A DNA stretch of 63,575 nucleotides, taken from Fimbriimonadaceae bacterium (GTDB taxonomy: Bacteria > Armatimonadota > Fimbriimonadia > Fimbriimonadales > Fimbriimonadaceae). Below are positions 4,301 to 41,931 of the stretch, one piece after another. Position numbers and translations under genes: made by a program. The notes under the pieces are model-generated. The model made no database searches. It had not been told where the DNA came from and saw only the letters and a list, made by a program, of their open reading frames with translations. How positions within the stretch are numbered: the stretch's first letter is position 1; every line of letters begins with the position of its first letter. The DNA is taken from contig JADLBH010000019.1 in assembly GCA_020847855.1 (NCBI GenBank), positions 1 to 63,575 of the forward strand. Direction: 5' to 3'.

Positions 4301-4770
4301 AGCACCTCGCGCAACATCCCCACGAAGACATCGTTGTACTCCGGGGTGCCGTAGGCCGGGTGGTTGCGGTCCCAGGGGCTGAGATAAACGCCGAACTTCA
4401 GCCCGAACTTCTTGCAAGAGCGGCTCAGGTCGCGCAGGACGTCGCCCTTGCCCTCCCTCCATTTCGACTGCGCCACCGTGTGTCTGGAAAGCTTCGAGGG
4501 CCAGAGGCAAAAGCCGTCGTGGTGCTTGGCGGTGACGACGACCATGCTCATCCCCGCGTCCCGGAAGGCGCGGCACCACTGGTCGGTGTCCATCGCGGTC
4601 GGGGCAAAGGAGCCGGGGTCCTCGGTCCCCTTCCCCCACTCCTCCCCGCTAAAGGTGTTCGGCCCGAAGTGCACAAAGGCATAGTGCCCCAGGCCGTGCC
4701 AGGCCGACTGCCGGGCAGACGGGACGGCCTGCCCGCTCATCGCGAGACCACAGACGAGCGCCGGAAGCAT
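1297..4770 (-). CDS. Exported tandem GH29 alpha-L-fucosidase with central DUF6624 domain
   Basis: 1157 residues. An N-terminal hydrophobic segment (about residues 1-19) suggests export. The first GH29 barrel (about 25-415) has AKHHDGFCLWPS (81-92) and the strand WFDG with candidate nucleophile Asp169. Residues about 420-600 match DUF6624: DQAARR, a WLLVQHAD motif (492-499) and FGTQ (543-546). A second GH29 domain (about 605-1000) has FGLFIHWG, SKHHEGFALWPS and WFDG with candidate nucleophile Asp781. The last 120 residues look like a carbohydrate-binding beta-sandwich. GH29 enzymes remove L-fucose from glycans; the protein is probably a secreted or periplasmic glycan-degrading enzyme. Normal GH29 enzymes have one barrel and 400-600 residues, so the double barrel with an inserted DUF6624 is unusual. 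The DUF6624 function is unknown. No other sugar-use genes adjoin it. Confidence 0.9.
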   Translation of the reverse strand: MLPALVCGLAMSGQAVPSARQSAWHGLGHYAFVHFGPNTFSGEEWGKGTEDPGSFAPTAMDTDQWCRAFRDAGMSMVVVTAKHHDGFCLWPSKLSRHTVAQSKWREGKGDVLRDLSRSCKKFGLKFGVYLSPWDRNHPAYGTPEYNDVFVGMLREVLTGYGEVSEVWFDGANGEGPNGKRQVYDWPRYIATVRELAPNACIFSDAGPDVRWAGNEAGTVSETNWSTIDNSKHSPGHADTALLQTGTRGGPDWIPAECDVSIRPGWFWRASENGRVKTLDQLIEIYLASVGRGANLILNVPPDTRGLIHENDVRALRQFGAWHRATFSRPARPGEVADILELREPIERGQRVSHFQAWLTSPVDAFPIMNPRISPVTGTTIGNRRLVRVTPLPVSKIEVTVVGDRKSHADVQAKMYASPQARAAAIESLVEADQAARRKLLDATSTGSTPDKSLQTAVEEADRASTAYMVEFLHEYGYPIRSLYGSRAEGNAWLLVQHADADPKFQARYLKAMEDALKEGEADPQHFAYLTDRVLRAQGKPQRFGTQCTILKGKASLQPTEAPERLDERRAKMGMEPIAAYLRMVETMYTQNEPMIQDAQAKDARMKWWREARFGLFIHWGLYAIPAGVWKGKDYPGASEWLINHADIPPQDWLPLAKQWNPEKFDARAWVRAAKAAGMKYIVITSKHHEGFALWPSKVSNFDVETTPNHTDILGELKKACDEEGIQFGLYHSILDWTHKDYLPKRGADKRPPGDFTAYVGYMKAQLYELVTRYDPAILWFDGEWDTTWTHDLGLELEQYLRGLKPNLIINNRIDKGRDGMAGMTEDGYGGDFGTPEQEIPARGFPGTDWESCMTMNGSWGFDANDANWKSPKTLVENLVDCASKGGNYLLNVGPTAAGEIPPESLERMATVGRWLNRYGDAVYGTSAGPLLKQVPWGRVTSKPGKLFVCVFDPVLEEVTLPGVKAKVTRIYPMAQREQPGSLMYSGGAEGLKIPVPISAADPLVRVIVVEHEGPVEVTPVLLRPGADGVLQVAADEWSVDGTARYEADKKCIGYWTSQLTTLRLEVEGLAKGIYSVEVEWACAPGNEGAEVEFAVGGSSVRAKVPSSGGWDRFETATLGTVSCEGGRTVLKVTPVTKPGGAVMNLRSLRLLPVPVGG

Positions 4771-7412: not shown

Positions 7413-7539
7413 CCGCGGCGCGGGCGATCATCGAGCCCGCTTCACCAGCCTGGCAAAGTTACCAGATTTCCTATGACTTGTCCTCCAATCGCGACTTGGT
7501 AACGGTCCGATAACGATAGGCCGTCACACTGCTTACACG

Positions 7540-11822: not shown

Positions 11823-12491
11823 TCATTCGTCCACCCGACAGAGCTCCGGATCGCGAACGTCCGTAAACAGGTGTGAGATGCAACCCTGCTGCCCTCCAAG
11901 CTCGCCCGGTGCGCCACGGTAGCGACGAAACGCGTAACGAGCCCTCTGGATCGAGCCGTCTCTGCGAACGCGCAGCATGGGGCCGGAATAGAGGAACACC
12001 AAGTTTGCACCGAGCGGCGTCTTGAGGTCGTGCTTGTCGCCAAGCACCCTCAGTGCCAGAATCCCAGGGTTACTGTCGAACGAACCGACAAGGTCATAGA
12101 ACCGCTCCGCCCCGAGCCACGTCCCGCGGAAGTGCGTCTCCCATGAGACGGGATACTCCGACTCGTAGCGGAAGAGTGTGGCACGGTTGAGGATCTCCCC
12201 ACCATAGCCGAGCGGAAGGTCGTCCGTCGGAGCCCGCAGGATCCGAGCATCGGTCAATTGCCCAGAGCGGACGATGTCGTCCATCGGGCCGATGTGCCAC
12301 CGACCGGCATCTTCGGAATAGGCCGCGATCGCCAGATAGAGCTGACGGCCGTCCGAGGTCGCGCTCGCCCGAAAGCCCTCGCGGCGTGCCTCGCGAGTGG
12401 CCCCGAACAGCAGTCCGGCAAGCAAGATCAGGATCGCAAGGCTCACGATGATCTCGATCAGGGTCAGTCCACGCAATCTCCGGTCCCTCAT
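11823..12491 (-). CDS. Pseudopilin-like protein, cassette 1
   Basis: 222 residues. The N-terminus RLRG-LTLIEIIVSLAILILL is a type IV prepilin signal: short basic leader, Gly before the cleavage site, Glu5 and a hydrophobic helix. The C-terminal region has a conserved pattern (FDSNPGILALRVLG, SGPMLRVRRDGSIQRARYAF) shared with the pseudopilin at 39387. Pseudopilins are processed by prepilin peptidase and assemble into short periplasmic pili of type II secretion or type IV pilus systems; no other such gene is nearby. The start overlaps the stop of the membrane-protein gene (ATGA), so the three genes of the cassette are one operon. It is the last gene. Confidence 0.85.
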   Translation of the reverse strand: MRDRRLRGLTLIEIIVSLAILILLAGLLFGATREARREGFRASATSDGRQLYLAIAAYSEDAGRWHIGPMDDIVRSGQLTDARILRAPTDDLPLGYGGEILNRATLFRYESEYPVSWETHFRGTWLGAERFYDLVGSFDSNPGILALRVLGDKHDLKTPLGANLVFLYSGPMLRVRRDGSIQRARYAFRRYRGAPGELGGQQGCISHLFTDVRDPELCRVDE

Positions 12492-12916
12492 TTCCGTGCC
12501 GCCTCCCACCACAAGGCAAGACCCTTGGCCAGGGAAGCGCAGATGATCGGCTGGCAAACGACGGTACCGATGAACTCCAGAGCATCCAATATCGCCTGCG
12601 TCTCGGCCGAGACTGAGATCGAGCGCGTGACAAAGCGAACGACGATCAACGCTATGGAAGCCACGACGAGCACCGGGCGCCACTTCCCTCCAATCCACAG
12701 GGCTGCGATCGGGAGGGCGATCACTGCGACATTGACGACTTGTGCGAGAAACACGTCGGCCGGGTTGATATTGAGCCGAATCCAGGGGCCATCGCCCCTG
12801 GCGAAGGCCAACCACACCCCGACCCAGACCGGTGCAAGGGCCACCGCCGACACGAGCACAGCGACGCTCCGAACCATCACCGCCTTCAGCCGGCTTTGGG
12901 TCAAAGAGGAGGCCAT
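12488..12916 (-). CDS. Small multi-spanning membrane protein, cassette 1
   Basis: 142 residues from ATG 12916, which overlaps the end of the Cys-rich gene by 16 nt. Three to four hydrophobic helices are visible (about residues 12-35, 52-76, 80-96 and 108-130). A longer frame begins at 13027 but would overlap the upstream gene extensively. No known family recognised. The position between the Cys-rich and pseudopilin genes is the same as that of the 40045 gene in cassette 2, although the two membrane proteins are only weakly similar. Confidence 0.7.
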   Translation of the reverse strand: MASSLTQSRLKAVMVRSVAVLVSAVALAPVWVGVWLAFARGDGPWIRLNINPADVFLAQVVNVAVIALPIAALWIGGKWRPVLVVASIALIVVRFVTRSISVSAETQAILDALEFIGTVVCQPIICASLAKGLALWWEAARK

Positions 12917-13377
12917 GGCACATCGCAGGACGGTTCGCCCTGGTTCCCAGTACACCCTGGGAACTGCGTGTTCGACGTGCGGCAACAATCGCCCGTTCGG
13001 TTCCAGTCCAAACACGCGACGCGCCACACCCAGCCCCCGCTACTGGGGCATTGATAGTAGATTCGGGTCTGTCGGTACACCCACTCGTTCTGCCACCAGA
13101 ATCCGCCACAGAGGTCGCCCGAGTCCTTCTTGCACGTGTCGCGGACGTCCCAGTGATGCTCTTCGCAACCCCCATCAACGCACGGATTGCTACCTGCAGG
13201 CATCTCTTGAGGATGGTACGTTCCATCGAGAACGGCGGTCAGATCCCGACGGAACTCTGCCGCCGAAACGGTCTTCGAGTTCCCACTGCGGCAGGTGGTG
13301 TGGCTCCTCACGGCCTCAAAGTGGCGAACCGCGTCGCCCTGGAAGAAGAGTGCATTCCCTGCCAAGAGGAGCGGCAT
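12901..13377 (-). CDS. Cys-rich protein, cassette 1
   Basis: 158 residues. The C-terminal 100 residues contain about 12 Cys in a pattern matched in the protein at 40448: SNPCVDGGC, DTC, LCGGF, then QCPSSGGWVWRVAC, DCCRT, GCTGNQGEPSC. The paired cysteines suggest a disulphide-bonded extracytoplasmic domain. The N-terminus (MPLLLAGNALFFQG) is only weakly hydrophobic and lacks the clear signal peptide of the paralogue, so the start may be wrong or the 5' end damaged; an in-frame TAG closes the frame just upstream. It is the first gene of the cassette. I do not recognise the family. Confidence 0.7.
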   Translation of the reverse strand: MPLLLAGNALFFQGDAVRHFEAVRSHTTCRSGNSKTVSAAEFRRDLTAVLDGTYHPQEMPAGSNPCVDGGCEEHHWDVRDTCKKDSGDLCGGFWWQNEWVYRQTRIYYQCPSSGGWVWRVACLDWNRTGDCCRTSNTQFPGCTGNQGEPSCDVPWPPL

Positions 13378-13609
13378 GGAAGCTGTACCTGCCTAAACTA
13401 GCCAACTCGCTAAGACGAAGCGAGCCGAGAGCCGAGAGCCGAGAGCCAATTTTCATGATCATCGTTCCTCCATGGAGAACTATACACGATCCCTACGTCG
13501 CTCTTCTTTCCGGTGCGCTTGCCCCACGGACTCTCGAACCTGAGACGACTGCAGCGGAGCGATCTCCTGAGGCTCCGCGTGCCTGCGTCCATGCGGTAAG
13601 CTCCCGTAC

Positions 13610-25537: not shown

Positions 25538-25685
25538 CCTCCCTCATGTCTTCGACACGAGGGAGGGGGACCGGAAGCCCCTCATGTTCCGACACGAGGG
25601 AGGGGACCGGGAGCCCCTCATGTTCCGACACGAGGGAGGGGACCGGGAGCCCCTCATGTTCCGACACGAGGGAGGGGACCGGAAG
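25538..25685. repeat. 36-bp tandem repeat (4 units) with hairpin at its left end
   Basis: A 36-bp unit (CATGTTCCGACACGAGGG..., GAGCCCCT) occurs three times almost exactly plus one diverged first copy. Each unit can fold CCCTC against GAGGG. At the left end CCCCTCCCTC (25538-25547) pairs with GAGGGAGGGG (25561-25570) through an inner TGTC/GACA stem. Translated on the + strand it reads SCSDTREGTGSP, but it precedes the likely start of the next gene and is treated as non-coding. Confidence 0.8.
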
Positions 25686-25720
25686 CCCCCTCCTCGTCAG
25701 CGCCGCTGATGAGGAGGGGG
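25686..25720. repeat. 16-bp palindrome, copy B
   Basis: Arms 25686-25701 and 25705-25720 are identical to those of copy A at 25080-25114; only the three loop bases differ (GCC against CAC). It ends 38 nt before the start of the pentapeptide-repeat gene. Confidence 0.8.
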
Positions 25721-25758: not shown

Positions 25759-27576
25759 GTGAGCGAGAAGCCCAAGGGCTGGTTCGAGCGCAACCGGCAG
25801 TACGTCGCTTGGGGCGTTGCCGCCTTCCTCGTCGGTACGGGGGGGATGCTCGGCCTCCTCTCCCTGGCCGGGATCACGTCCCTTCCTGTCCCGGTGACGA
25901 TCCTTGACAAGGCCGCCCAGGGCCACGTCGTCACAGCCGCCGTTTCCTGGTTCGCGGGCACGATCGCCCTCTATACCTTCTATATCAACATCAACCAGAA
26001 GGAGAGGCAGCACGCCGCCCTACTCGGGCAGGAGAGGCACTTGGACCTCTCGCGCGAGAGGCGCGAGCGCGACCTTGCCGAGCTTCTCCGACTCGAGGAG
26101 GAGTTCAAGGCCCTCGCCGACGACTTCGCCCAACCAGAGACCCTCGCCCGGATCAACGCCGCCATCGGCCTCGGTGAGCTCGCCCAGCGGGCCGACCCGA
26201 GGCGCGAGGAGGACGGGCGCGTCTTGCCCGACCCGCGCGAGGACGGCGCCCAGACCGCATTCGGCACCGACGGGAAGCTCCTGGACGAGCCCGTCCCCTG
26301 GCCCGACGAGTGGCGCAGCCTCAAGACCGAGCGCAACTACCCCTACTTCCTCCGCGCCGCCCACCGGCTTGCCGCCGCCCTCCACCAGTGGGACGACGCC
26401 GCCCGCAGCCAGGCCCTGCGCGTCCTGCGCGAGATGGGCGATTGGGCCAAGGACGAGAAGACGGACGAGCCCCTGCTCCATGCCCTCTGCAACGCCCTCG
26501 CCGAGGCCAACCGCGATGCGTGGGCGCAACTGCGCGACTGGGCCGCCGTCTGCCTGGCCAGCGAGACCGCACCGGACGATCTTGCGAACCTTCTGGGCTT
26601 GACGGAGCCGGAGGGCGGTCGCGAGGAGACGGCCCGGAAAGCGTTCCTCGCCGACCTGCGAGACGGCCTCGAGGGCTCGGCAACGGCGGTGGCGTTCGAG
26701 GCCGTGCCCCCGGACCAAAAGAAGCCCAAGGGAGAACTGGAGAACCGGTTCTTCCTCTCCGGCAAGGGGTGGCTCGCCACCCGCGACGCCCTCGCCACCG
26801 CGCTTCGCACGCTCTCCGCAGCGCCGGACTCGGGGCCGGCCGAGGGGCTGAGGGTCCCCGAAGCACAACTCCTAAGCGAGCGTCGGTCACTCGACCTCGC
26901 CTTCGTCCGCATGTTCCAGGCGGACTGCACCAGGGCCCACTTCGAGGGGGCGGACTGCACCAGGGCGCACTTCGAGGGGGCGCGCTGCTTCGAGGCGCAC
27001 TTCGAGGGGGCGGACTGCACCGGGGCGCACTTCGAGGGGGCGCGCTGCACCGGGGCGCGCTTCGAGGGGGCGCGCTGCTTCGAGGCGCACTTCGAGGGGA
27101 CGGGCTGCTTCGAGGCGCACTTCGAGGGGGCGCGCTGCTTCGAGGCGCACTTCGAGGGGGCGAACTGCACCAGGGCGCACTTCGAGGGGGCGGACTGCAC
27201 CTGGGCGAACTTCGAGGGGGCGAACTGCACCGGGGCGAACTTCGAGGGGGCGAACTGCACCGGGGCGAACTTCGAGGGGGCGGGCTGCACCGGGGCGCGC
27301 TTCAACTCGAACTCCAGGCTCGCCTCGGCACAGATGGGCCAACGTTCGGGTAGCGAAACGATCCAAGGCACCCTCGATTCTTGGGAGAGCGCGGACTTTC
27401 GTCACTGGACCTTCAACGACGACACCCAGGCGTGGGCGCCGACCGAGGAGTACGACCAGGAGCTCTGGAACTTCCTGAACACGCGACTCCCGGTCGCAGC
27501 AGGGCAGTCCGCCCGTGTGCCGCCTTGGGAGGCGGGGGGGGGCACTGATGCAGGCGATGGCGCTGAGCCGGGCTAG
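25759..27576 (+). CDS. Membrane-anchored pentapeptide-repeat protein with a cysteine ladder
   Basis: 605 residues from GTG 25759 (the frame runs back through the 36-bp repeat, but GTG with CACAAT upstream is the better start). Two transmembrane helices (about 17-40 and 55-77), then a charged coiled region (ERHLDLSRERRERDLAELL) and a helical domain. Residues about 390-515 are 13 near-identical decapeptides of the form xxC-T/F-x-A-x-FEGA; this is a right-handed pentapeptide beta-helix with a Cys at the same place in every coil. The tail is unrelated and acidic. The fold of this kind of protein is known from DNA-mimicking and membrane-associated proteins, but the role here is unknown. Confidence 0.82.
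   Translation: MSEKPKGWFERNRQYVAWGVAAFLVGTGGMLGLLSLAGITSLPVPVTILDKAAQGHVVTAAVSWFAGTIALYTFYININQKERQHAALLGQERHLDLSRERRERDLAELLRLEEEFKALADDFAQPETLARINAAIGLGELAQRADPRREEDGRVLPDPREDGAQTAFGTDGKLLDEPVPWPDEWRSLKTERNYPYFLRAAHRLAAALHQWDDAARSQALRVLREMGDWAKDEKTDEPLLHALCNALAEANRDAWAQLRDWAAVCLASETAPDDLANLLGLTEPEGGREETARKAFLADLRDGLEGSATAVAFEAVPPDQKKPKGELENRFFLSGKGWLATRDALATALRTLSAAPDSGPAEGLRVPEAQLLSERRSLDLAFVRMFQADCTRAHFEGADCTRAHFEGARCFEAHFEGADCTGAHFEGARCTGARFEGARCFEAHFEGTGCFEAHFEGARCFEAHFEGANCTRAHFEGADCTWANFEGANCTGANFEGANCTGANFEGAGCTGARFNSNSRLASAQMGQRSGSETIQGTLDSWESADFRHWTFNDDTQAWAPTEEYDQELWNFLNTRLPVAAGQSARVPPWEAGGGTDAGDGAEPG
26920..27305. repeat. 30-bp in-gene tandem repeat, about 13 units
   Basis: The decapeptide coding units are almost identical at DNA level (CACTTCGAGGGGGCG recurs at 30-bp intervals), indicating recent duplication or gene conversion. 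Unit number could vary between strains. Confidence 0.85.
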
Positions 27577-39386: not shown

Positions 39387-40058
39387 CTAGTTAGAACCAT
39401 CTGGCTCAAATCTACACGCTTCCTTGTTATCCGTAAACAGCGCAGCTGCACAGAAGGTCGTGGTCGAGCCATGGGAGTCCGGGACTCGGTCGAACTTCAT
39501 TTGCGCCCGCTCCACAGAGCCATCTTCTCTAGCACGGATCATCGGTCCGTCGAAACGAAACGACAAGAGGCGCATCTCGCAACTTGGGTCGCTGTACTCG
39601 GTTCGGTTCCCTAAGGTACGCAAAGCTATCAGTCCAGGGTTCGAATCGTACCGCATCACGAGGTCGTACATCTGGTCCACTTCGCCAGGGTGCGTCCCTC
39701 GAAACAGGTACTCCCAACTGCACGGATAAGAGACAAGGACGTCCCCTCCGGTACTGCATTCGAGCCAACGCCCGTAGTAGCCAGATCGGAACTCGTCACC
39801 TGGTTCTCGCAATATTTGAGTGTCTTGCAGGTGCCCAGCGTCGTGAAGCTGGTCCAACGTGCTGTTCGGTAGCTTGCCCTCGGCTTCTCGATACTGAAGT
39901 AGTGCCATAAGGGTCTGCCTCCCATGGATGGTCGCAGCACCTCGTCGCCCTTCTTTCCTTGCCTCGGAAAGAACAGGCATGAGCAGCGCAAGAATCAACG
40001 CAAGGATCACGAGAACGACCAGGATCTCAAGGAGCGAGAAGGCCCTATACCTGTGCAT
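39387..40058 (-). CDS. Pseudopilin-like protein, cassette 2
   Basis: 223 residues. Prepilin signal MHRYRA-FSLLEILVVLVILALILALL with Ala in place of the usual Gly before the cleavage site and Glu5 kept. The body (YDSNPGLIALRTLGN; FDGPMIRAREDGSVERAQ) is clearly homologous to the pseudopilin at 11823. The ATG overlaps the membrane-protein gene by 14 nt. Position and orientation within the cassette are the same as in cassette 1. Confidence 0.85.
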   Translation of the reverse strand: MHRYRAFSLLEILVVLVILALILALLMPVLSEARKEGRRGAATIHGRQTLMALLQYREAEGKLPNSTLDQLHDAGHLQDTQILREPGDEFRSGYYGRWLECSTGGDVLVSYPCSWEYLFRGTHPGEVDQMYDLVMRYDSNPGLIALRTLGNRTEYSDPSCEMRLLSFRFDGPMIRAREDGSVERAQMKFDRVPDSHGSTTTFCAAALFTDNKEACRFEPDGSN

Positions 40059-40437
40059 TCAGTCTCCTGCGGCCGCAAGCTGCCGCGACCGCGAGGGCCG
40101 AAACAACCGGTGCCCCAACGAACCCGAGTAGCAGTGTCAATTTCGGCTTCCATTCCGGCGCAGTTCCCGCGAATGGCTGCCTTGTCGCATAGTGTGTGCC
40201 CAAGAGCGCAACGGCCGCTACGCACGGGACCCACCACGAAACACCCTTGCGGGCGATCACAAGCCCAAGAGCCGCCCCTGCCAGGTTGAAAACACAACCG
40301 ATGCCAAAGTTGTACCAAAAGTAATGGAAGACCGTGCCTTCGAGCCCCGGCGGACTCGATGCGGCGATCCCGAGCACGTTCAGCATCGAACCCGACGCTG
40401 TGGCTGCCAGGACGATCAGACTCCTTCGAAGCACCAC
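40045..40437 (-). CDS. Small multi-spanning membrane protein, cassette 2
   Basis: 130 residues from GTG 40437, 10 nt after the stop of the Cys-rich gene; the frame is open to 40515 but that start would overlap the upstream gene. About four hydrophobic helices (SLIVLAATASGSMLNVLGIAA, FNLAGAALGLVIA, WWVPCVAAVALLG and VVSALAVAAACG). No family recognised. The equivalent gene in cassette 1 is 12488-12916. Confidence 0.65.
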   Translation of the reverse strand: MVLRRSLIVLAATASGSMLNVLGIAASSPPGLEGTVFHYFWYNFGIGCVFNLAGAALGLVIARKGVSWWVPCVAAVALLGTHYATRQPFAGTAPEWKPKLTLLLGFVGAPVVSALAVAAACGRRRLNAQV

Positions 40438-40447
40438 TGAGATTCGG

Positions 40448-40987
40448 CTACACTCCCGCGCCACACGGCAACTCGCCGTTGTTGCCGAAGCACCCAGTCG
40501 GTAATGGATCCCCATCGCGGCAGCAAACTTGCAACGGATGGAAGCTTTGAGGGCACCAGACGCGAAAGACGCTCACCCCTCCGGGCTTGGGGCAGGAGTC
40601 GCGCATGTAAGTTCGAGTCCACACCCGATCGTCCTGGCCGAACACGCCAGGACAAGAGTTGTCGATCACACACCAATCCTGGACCTGGTCGCCTAAGTAA
40701 GAGCAACCCGCTTCGACGTACGGATTGGACGAAGGCGAACTTGCAGGGCGCTCGCTACTCGACTGCATGCTGTTCTTGAGCGAGGCTCGAATGCTCGACT
40801 GTACGAGTTCCTTTTCCCGAATGGGATCCCGATTTTCACAGCCGGGCGAGCCCTTGGACGCAATGCGGTCTGAGACAAGGGCTGCAGCTCGAGCTTCTCG
40901 AGAGACAAGCACCGATCCTAGCCCAAGAGCAAGGGCCGAGGCACCTTTGAAGAATCCGAACTTCTGAGGCAACAGAGGGATGGCCAT
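40448..40987 (-). CDS. Exported Cys-rich protein, cassette 2
   Basis: 179 residues. Signal peptide GASALALGLGSVLVSREARA with an ARA-type cleavage site. The last 90 residues repeat the Cys pattern of the cassette 1 protein: SNPYVEAGC, DWC, SCPGVFGQ, RTYMRDSCPKPGGVSVFRVWC, CCRDG and GCFGNNGELPC. The shared CC, CP-x-x-GG, RV-x-C and GC-x-GN-x-GE motifs define the family. Probably a disulphide-rich domain at the cell surface or in the periplasm. Function unknown. Confidence 0.78.
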   Translation of the reverse strand: MAIPLLPQKFGFFKGASALALGLGSVLVSREARAAALVSDRIASKGSPGCENRDPIREKELVQSSIRASLKNSMQSSSERPASSPSSNPYVEAGCSYLGDQVQDWCVIDNSCPGVFGQDDRVWTRTYMRDSCPKPGGVSVFRVWCPQSFHPLQVCCRDGDPLPTGCFGNNGELPCGAGV

Positions 40988-40988
40988 G

Positions 40989-41002
40989 TGGCCATATGGC
41001 CA
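40989..41002. promoter_or_regulatory. 14-bp perfect palindrome TGGCCATATGGCCA
   Basis: The palindrome ends 2 nt before the ATG of the Cys-rich gene (read on the minus strand) and lies 60 bp after atpG. It is a candidate operator, or a chance result of repeated GGCC/CATATG motifs. Confidence 0.35.
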
Positions 41003-41061
41003 AGCATGAAATCAATGGCTTGGCTCGAACTCAGGACTTTAGGCCCAGTTCGACCGGATGG

Positions 41062-41931
41062 CTACGCCTTCAGCGCTTCCGCCCCGCCGACGATCTCGAG
41101 GATCTCCTTCGTGATCCCGGCTTGGCGAACCCGGTTGGCGGTGAGGGTCAGGCCACCGATCATCTTGCCCGCGTTGTCGGTCGCGCTCGTCATGGCGGTC
41201 ATCCGCGCCCCGTGCTCGCTGGCCGCCGCCTCGAGGAGAGCCTGGTAGACGACGGTCACGAGATACTTCGGCAGCAAGAGCCCGAGTAGCGCGGCGGGCT
41301 CCGGCTCGTACATGTACTCCGCCACCTTCGAGCCGCTTTCTTCCTCGTGGGAGCCTACTGGGGGCTCGATCGGTAGAAGCTGCACCACCTGCGGCACCTG
41401 GCGGATCGGCGAATAGAACTTCGAGTAGCAGAGGTAGATTGCGTCCACCTCGCCTTCCACGAACATCCGTTTCACCTCGTCCGCGATCTCGACCGCATGG
41501 GAGATGTCCCCGCCTGCCGTGGGAAGCGTGAACGACTTGGCCACCTCGTGCCCTCGCTTCGAAAAGAACTGCCAGCCTTTCTTCCCGACGCCTACGATCG
41601 CGTGCTCCTTGCCGGACTCTTTTAGGAAGTCCGCCGCCTTGCGGATCACGAGCGTGTTGTACGAGCCCGCGAGCCCCCGGTCCGCGGTCAGGAGCAGGAG
41701 ACCGATCTTCTTGATCTCGCGTCGGTCGAGCAAGGGGTGGGCGGGCAGCTCGCCGGCCTGGCCGACGTTCTCCATGAACTCCCGCATCTTCTCGGCGTAG
41801 GGCCTGGCCTCCTCGACCCTCATCTTCGCTCGGGTAAGGCGAGCCGCCGCCACCAGCTTCATCGCGCGCGTGATCTGCTGGATGTTCTTGGCGGAACGAA
41901 TCCGTTGCCGGATCTGCTTGAGGGTCGCCAT
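41062..41931 (-). CDS. atpG: ATP synthase subunit gamma
   Basis: 289 residues. Ends with the conserved gamma C-terminal helix (RVRQAGITKEILEIVGGAEAL) and begins ATLKQIRQRIRSAKNIQQITRAMK. It forms the central stalk of F1. It is the last gene of the ATP synthase operon here; the beta and epsilon genes do not follow. Cassette 2 starts 75 bp downstream on the same strand. Confidence 0.95.
   Translation of the reverse strand: MATLKQIRQRIRSAKNIQQITRAMKLVAAARLTRAKMRVEEARPYAEKMREFMENVGQAGELPAHPLLDRREIKKIGLLLLTADRGLAGSYNTLVIRKAADFLKESGKEHAIVGVGKKGWQFFSKRGHEVAKSFTLPTAGGDISHAVEIADEVKRMFVEGEVDAIYLCYSKFYSPIRQVPQVVQLLPIEPPVGSHEEESGSKVAEYMYEPEPAALLGLLLPKYLVTVVYQALLEAAASEHGARMTAMTSATDNAGKMIGGLTLTANRVRQAGITKEILEIVGGAEALKA

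Follow-up and report, generated by a model that had tools for sequence, protein, structure and literature searches.

A recurring cassette of a cysteine-rich exported protein, a small membrane protein and a type IV pilin-like protein, with repeats that suggest phase variation

We found that two similar gene clusters in the stretch of DNA analysed here (the window, 63,575 nucleotides, which is contig 19 of a 2.5-Mb host genome) belong to a family of three-gene cassettes that recurs in the phylum. The cassettes encode a Cys-rich exported protein, a small membrane protein and a type IV pilin-like protein, and in many lineages simple repeats lie at the 5' end of the Cys-rich gene. We give about an even chance to the reading that the cassette specifies a secreted, disulphide-rich contact molecule (an adhesin or exoprotein), which its own minor pilin would carry to the surface on a type IV filament built elsewhere.

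Both clusters in the window lie on the minus strand. In cassette A, the gene for the Cys-rich protein (13377-12901; 158 aa, 11 Cys; 126 bits to the Cys-rich profile described below) is followed by that for the small membrane protein (12916-12488; 142 aa), which has 4 predicted transmembrane (TM) helices, and then by that for the type IV pilin-like protein (12491-11823; 222 aa; 228 bits against the cassette pilin profile), which carries the N_methyl motif and the sequences DSNPG, GPMLRVRRDGS and LFTD. The Cys-rich and membrane genes overlap by 16 nt, and the membrane and pilin genes by 4 nt. Cassette B encodes a Cys-rich protein with an ordinary-looking signal peptide (40987-40448; 179 aa, 10 Cys), a membrane protein with 3-4 TM helices (40437-40045; 130 aa) and a pilin-like protein (40058-39387; 223 aa), spaced by a 10-nt gap and a 14-nt overlap, respectively. 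The GTG start of its membrane protein is uncertain, and the frame stays open upstream as far as an ATG at 40515. Gene order, overlaps and gap were all as described in the original prediction, which had also called the two pilins homologous and noted a dense Cys pattern common to the two Cys-rich proteins. The pilins do match each other (126 bits, E = 6e-41, 40% identity), and the likeness of the Cys-rich proteins extends beyond the Cys residues (BLASTP 46 bits, E = 1e-11). Sequence comparison of the two membrane proteins revealed no significant similarity; they are similar in length and position, each with 3-4 strong hydrophobic segments. The N_methyl domain of the pilins was the only named-family match in both cassettes.

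In a first pass, we built two-sequence profiles of the pilin and of the Cys-rich protein. Run on 101 related genomes, the pilin profile returned a small set of full-length matches besides generic N-terminal ones, and the matches of the Cys-rich profile adjoined those same full-length pilins. Because they were found without using the pilin and still adjoin pilins, these profile matches, together with BLASTP, exclude the reading that the Cys-rich proteins are alike in Cys spacing only. Profiles from wider alignments (16 Cys-rich proteins, 18 pilins) were run on 291 genomes of the phylum. The Cys-rich profile identified 30 genes in 19 genomes and 10 genera, and a cassette-type pilin lies downstream on the same strand, within about 1.2 kb, of 29 of them; the 30th (genome G187) ends 302 nt short of its contig end. 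A hydrophobic ORF of 124-210 aa stands between the Cys-rich gene and the pilin in 25 of the 31 units with both ends readable, and four of the remaining six have a similar membrane gene just after the pilin (L059, L061, L126 and L135). Listing the neighbours of the profile matches showed that Cys-rich homologues are mostly linked to a pilin and a membrane gene, and the three-gene module predicted from the window alone is indeed a recurring one. The order of Cys-rich, 4-TM and pilin genes is repeated locus after locus, and since it recurs genome after genome the arrangement is not due to chance. Furthermore, sequence distances among Cys-rich proteins and among pilins are correlated (Mantel r = 0.74, P = 2e-4; 29 units), as expected for genes inherited as a single unit.

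The two copies that had been noted are indeed those of the window, although the host genome as a whole holds five units. Besides the window pair, there is one on contig 5 (L056), and contig 20 (L057) carries two more, the second of which lacks the membrane gene. At another locus (L125; G189:C3:252000-266000), one Cys-rich gene is followed by a row of three cassette-type pilins and membrane genes, two of the pilins being very alike. Cassette B lies directly after atpG (window 39387-41931; the identity of atpG was read from the translated sequence), and atpD does not adjoin atpG in the window. In genus g4, a same-strand membrane-pilin pair without a Cys-rich gene is found some 2 kb past atpG (L052, 5957-9503; L053, 6002-9549). 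This pair looks like the cassette B locus after losing its Cys-rich gene. A profile search of 34 outgroup genomes, mostly Planctomycetes and Verrucomicrobia, returned no relatives of the Cys-rich protein, a weak negative given that the search had no positive control. In GTDB, a 4-row pilin alignment matched mostly Planctomycetes through the generic pilin helix, with no evidence of cassettes.

The Cys-rich proteins are 110-200 aa long and contain 8-15 Cys, and most have an N-terminal hydrophobic segment predicted to suit Sec export. They often have a G-C motif near the mature N-terminus; a variable linker then leads into a core whose pattern reads C-x2-C ... QDxC ... C ... N ... R ... Y-x-C ... 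V-x-C-x2-W ... G-x-CC ... C ... C. Across this core, the alignment shows invariant Cys as well as Gly and Arg positions that are almost invariant. The family profile had no match in the PDB below E = 0.79, the 16 members had none in Pfam except one to an unrelated family (E = 0.07), and defence and bacteriocin models matched none of the cassette proteins. AlphaFold, given nothing but the two window sequences, yielded poor models, with a mean pLDDT of 37 for the Cys-rich protein and 41 for the pilin. The view that no system of this composition has been described held for Pfam, NCBIfam, PADLOC, PHROGs, the PDB and the literature searched. At one locus (L139, 4317-4738) the Cys-rich gene is split over two frames, which cover profile positions 7-110 and 107-158, and has an A10 run upstream; this may be another off state or a pseudogene.

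The membrane proteins are the most diverged part of the cassette; as their sequences are barely alike, a common role for them rests on position and topology. In two genera (L046 and L054), membrane protein and pilin are encoded in one ORF; the stretch immediately before the pilin motif contains no ATG, GTG or TTG over 40 codons in L046 and over 30 codons in L054. These fusions link the membrane protein with the pilin, not with the Cys-rich protein. If the TM helices of a fusion are even in number, its pilin part would still start in the cytoplasm, and the prepilin peptidase could cut it and leave both products. A role as thiol oxidase was considered and rejected: the membrane proteins have 0-5 Cys, and no shared CxxC was seen.

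PF07963 was matched above cut-off by both window pilins and by 17 of the 18 members of the pilin family, and the Glu of the prepilin motif is invariant in the alignment. GspG was the best named model for 16 of the 18, and five matched DUF1559; tested against TIGR01710 (GspG), the window pilins reached 30.2 bits, well short of the cut-off of 88.85. Across the 291 genomes, the cassette pilins stand out as a full-length family of their own (about 55 matches above 130 bits) that is largely tied to the Cys-rich gene. The host genome encodes 37 N_methyl proteins. Secretion ATPase, secretin and prepilin peptidase gave zero matches in the window contig, and all lie on other contigs, as foreseen for a module that would plug into a machine encoded elsewhere. 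We found five full PilB/GspE-type ATPase matches and further partial ones, three secretins, several GspF/PilC domains, PilT-like matches and a single prepilin peptidase. ATPases, a platform protein, the peptidase and pilins occur together on contig 23 (T4P-like), and an ATPase, a platform protein, four pilins and a secretin on contig 15 (T2SS-like), so the machinery absent from the cassettes exists elsewhere in the genome. With its N-terminal motif and a machine in the same genome, the third gene qualifies as a type IV pilin or pseudopilin.

Of 29 Cys-rich genes, 16 have a simple repeat at their 5' end, compared with 3 of 231 other genes at the same loci (Fisher p = 4e-15; fixed rule, between -100 and +150 of the gene, the related species being not fully independent). 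The other 13 Cys-rich genes, cassette B included, have no repeat by that rule. The original prediction had overlooked these repeats, the three further units and the membrane-pilin fusions. Its interpretation was supported in part: the module recurs, no system of this composition turned up in the sources searched, and a pilus or secretion machine is encoded elsewhere in the genome; display of the Cys-rich protein on that machine is a hypothesis.

In two genera of two distant families (f2/g37 and f8/g50), a run of 7-15 G comes after the signal-peptide codons (...MPHTLAAL...), and the sites are homologous. Among the 291 genomes, this poly-G leader pattern occurs at 12 places in 9 genomes, and a reversed-pattern control gave 0. 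Five copies are in frame (G7, G7, G10, G12 and G15) and seven are out of frame (G8 to G11), where the lengths come from one assembly per species, differ between copies and between species, and may include homopolymer assembly errors. Long intact Cys frames persist past the tract in most out-of-frame copies. At locus L055, tandem cassettes have identical leader DNA and unlike bodies, one with G15 in frame (4744-4758) and the other with G10 out of frame (7492-7501), as if the leaders had been kept alike by recombination. In f2 and f8, an ORF matching sigma-70 region 4 (5e-10 at best, less strongly in others) lies directly upstream of the Cys-rich gene, and the end of this ECF-sigma-like ORF overlaps the Cys-rich leader and the G run (L058, 4203-4883; L059, 4383-5105; L126, 3133-3888; L128, 3017-4135; L135, 3574-4308; minus loci in reverse-complement coordinates). 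In L128, the out-of-frame state of the G tract fuses the sigma frame and the Cys-rich frame into one ORF.

The repeats in the window's family vary in kind and sit just before the Cys-rich gene. Both contig-20 genes (L057, G000:C20) are preceded at about 36 nt by (AG)12, and these two are the only (AG)9+ arrays in the whole 2.5-Mb genome. About 70 bp of DNA upstream of the two arrays is similar, which indicates that the repeat-bearing leader was duplicated along with the gene. Other repeats before the gene are G9 on contig 5, G10 in L132, C8 in L044 and (GGCTCTC)3.7 in cassette A; L049, from a related family, has (CT)7. In f1 genomes, the repeats fall outside what is predicted to be coding sequence.

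The cassette A array (13422-13447) is a perfect tandem repeat with 3.7 copies of a 7-bp unit, which reads GGCTCTC on the minus strand. It lies 45-70 nt before the ATG of the Cys-rich gene and is the only pure array of a unit below 11 bp that TRF reports in the window. On the minus strand, a TAG in the Cys-rich frame (13395-13393) lies 5' of the ATG at 13377, between the ORF and an upstream signal-peptide-like stretch. The N-terminus of this Cys-rich protein is doubtful because a basic n-region is absent and because of this in-frame TAG, and this copy may be in an off state or in decay. By itself, slippage of the 7-bp array cannot open the frame because of the TAG at 13395; that route was ruled out, as no array-crossing frame joins the Cys-rich frame before ATG 13377. 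Elsewhere in the window, we observed a long degenerate tandem array at 20-1178 (units of 66, 131 and 263 bp; AGTGTATCTGATCGGAGCCTGCCCGCTATCCCC...), a 36-bp x 4.1 repeat of 95% identity at 25541-25689, and a 30-bp x 12.8 tandem repeat within or beside a coding region at 26919-27303.

Repeats placed to alter frame or expression, and enriched over background, are the mark of a phase-variable locus, and both features were found here. The DNA evidence strongly suggests that Cys-rich expression is switched randomly on and off by repeat slippage (phase variation), a mechanism that usually marks surface contact molecules. That the repeats are instead incidental, products of high G+C DNA or of assembly errors, with a constitutive gene and decaying out-of-frame copies, seems to us quite unlikely. 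The assemblies are drafts of one genome per species, the window alone holds a dozen G/C runs of 8-9, and some Cys-rich genes do look decayed (the frame-split gene of L139 and the TAG of cassette A). However, the enrichment of 16/29 over 3/231 was obtained within the same DNA, unrelated repeat types (G, AG, CT, 7-mer) fall at one place across lineages, two distant families retain poly-G at a single homologous site (control 0), and most out-of-frame copies keep long intact Cys frames past the tract.

Two other explanations accept the cassette and give it a different task. It may serve specialised type II secretion, with the Cys-rich protein a released exoprotein (an enzyme or binding protein), the pilin serving the contig-15 T2SS-like machine as a pseudopilin specific to this substrate, and no display on a filament. 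We regard this as somewhat unlikely, even though GspG is the best named model for most of the pilins, the genome has a cluster of GspE, GspF, pilins and secretin, and exported Cys-rich proteins are a typical kind of T2SS cargo; a one-to-one pairing of pseudopilin and cargo gene, repeated in many paralogous copies, is unusual for a T2SS, and surface structures, not exoenzymes, are where phase variation is typically seen. We consider it improbable that the cassette is an antagonism module in which the Cys-rich protein acts on rival bacteria, the 4-TM protein is a membrane immunity protein and the pilin is an export device. Small, fast-diverging multi-TM proteins are often immunity proteins, and here the membrane protein is the most diverged part, paralogous copies are strongly different, and membrane and pilin genes persist without the Cys-rich gene in L052 and L053. 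In two genera, though, the membrane part is fused to the pilin and not to the Cys-rich protein, Cys-rich and membrane genes are not always neighbours, and the bacteriocin and defence models showed no similarity.

If the cassette does specify a contact molecule carried by its own minor pilin, the Cys-rich protein, given its signal peptide and 8-15 Cys, would be exported by Sec and oxidised in the periplasm. The pilin, with its prepilin motif and a machine available in the genome, would be cleaved by the single prepilin peptidase and join a T4P or T2SS-type filament. The 4-TM protein would sit in the inner membrane beside the pilin and aid its insertion or loading, a role to which its conserved position and the two natural fusions point; in those fusions it would form the N-terminal part of the prepilin. 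Linkage and co-divergence of the two genes are consistent with a pilin that binds the Cys-rich protein and takes it through the secretin. In many lineages, slippage of the 5' repeats, as the repeats and mixed frames suggest, would switch expression of the Cys-rich protein and leave the pilin and membrane genes intact.

A more far-reaching version, which we advance tentatively and hold to be possible rather than probable, is that the cassettes represent a new class of phase-variable plug-in surface modules confined to one little-studied phylum. Each would bring its own minor pilin and membrane partner, many alternative Cys-rich tip proteins would be shown successively on a single shared pilus machine, and in the two fusions the 4-TM protein would be a prepilin leader cut by prepilin peptidase. 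If true, small self-contained cassettes would give a shared filament machine exchangeable, randomly switched tip proteins, a design so far known mainly from PilC/PilY1 in host-associated bacteria. It would also mean phase variation in an environmental phylum, probably under phage, predator or surface pressure, and would provide functions for protein families that match nothing in present databases.

Small multi-copy cassettes with pilin-like proteins and no secretion machine of their own are also seen in the Verru_Chthon cassette, for which we know of no Cys-rich partner. A few cassette pilins match its models (NCBIfam TIGR02596 and TIGR02599) weakly; the window pilins do so through the generic N-terminal helix only, far below both cut-offs (16.2 and 13.5 bits vs 70 and 256.5). 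The cassette pilins are part of the large N_methyl population seen in the PulG/DUF1559 pilin-like expansions of Fimbriimonas and Planctomycetes, but differ in forming a separate full-length family that is largely tied to a Cys-rich gene. They may provide a handle on why genomes carry dozens of pilin-like genes (37 here, 79 PulG-like genes in Fimbriimonas; PMC4072686).

It has been reported that in TcpF/TcpB of Vibrio cholerae and CofJ/CofB of ETEC, a minor pilin at the filament tip binds a secreted protein and carries it through the secretin (PMC9565799). The cassettes resemble these pairs in that a Sec-exported soluble protein is encoded with a pilin-like protein, and carriage outside by a filament is what we propose. 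In contrast, TcpF and CofJ have no detectable sequence relation to the Cys-rich family (PDB profile search, none below E = 0.79), and these pairs belong to a full pilus operon, are not Cys-rich and have neither a 4-TM partner nor repeats. A TcpF/CofJ-type protein is characterised by attachment to its minor pilin through an N-terminal segment; what the Cys-rich family has in this region is the common G-C motif near its mature N-terminus. PilC/PilY1 is likewise a surface contact protein linked to minor pilins, and Myxococcus has several paralogous PilY1 clusters per genome (PMC13190605). PilY1 differs in being a large protein with a conserved C-terminal domain and four minor pilins, whereas the cassette has one Cys-rich protein of 110-200 aa and usually one pilin; the PilY1 C-terminal domain is absent from the 16 Cys-rich members searched with Pfam, and no sequence similarity was found. 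The pilus-tip adhesins PilC1 and PilC2 of Neisseria are switched by poly-G in the signal-peptide region (PMC13190605, PMC5953494), much like the G tracts of the cassettes, and pilC is listed with G9-20 (PMC5953494). Taken together, a phase variation like that of Neisseria PilC and a pairing of secreted protein and pilin like that of TcpF/TcpB and CofJ/CofB suggest, by analogy, a tip protein or exoprotein that can be switched and has a minor pilin of its own.
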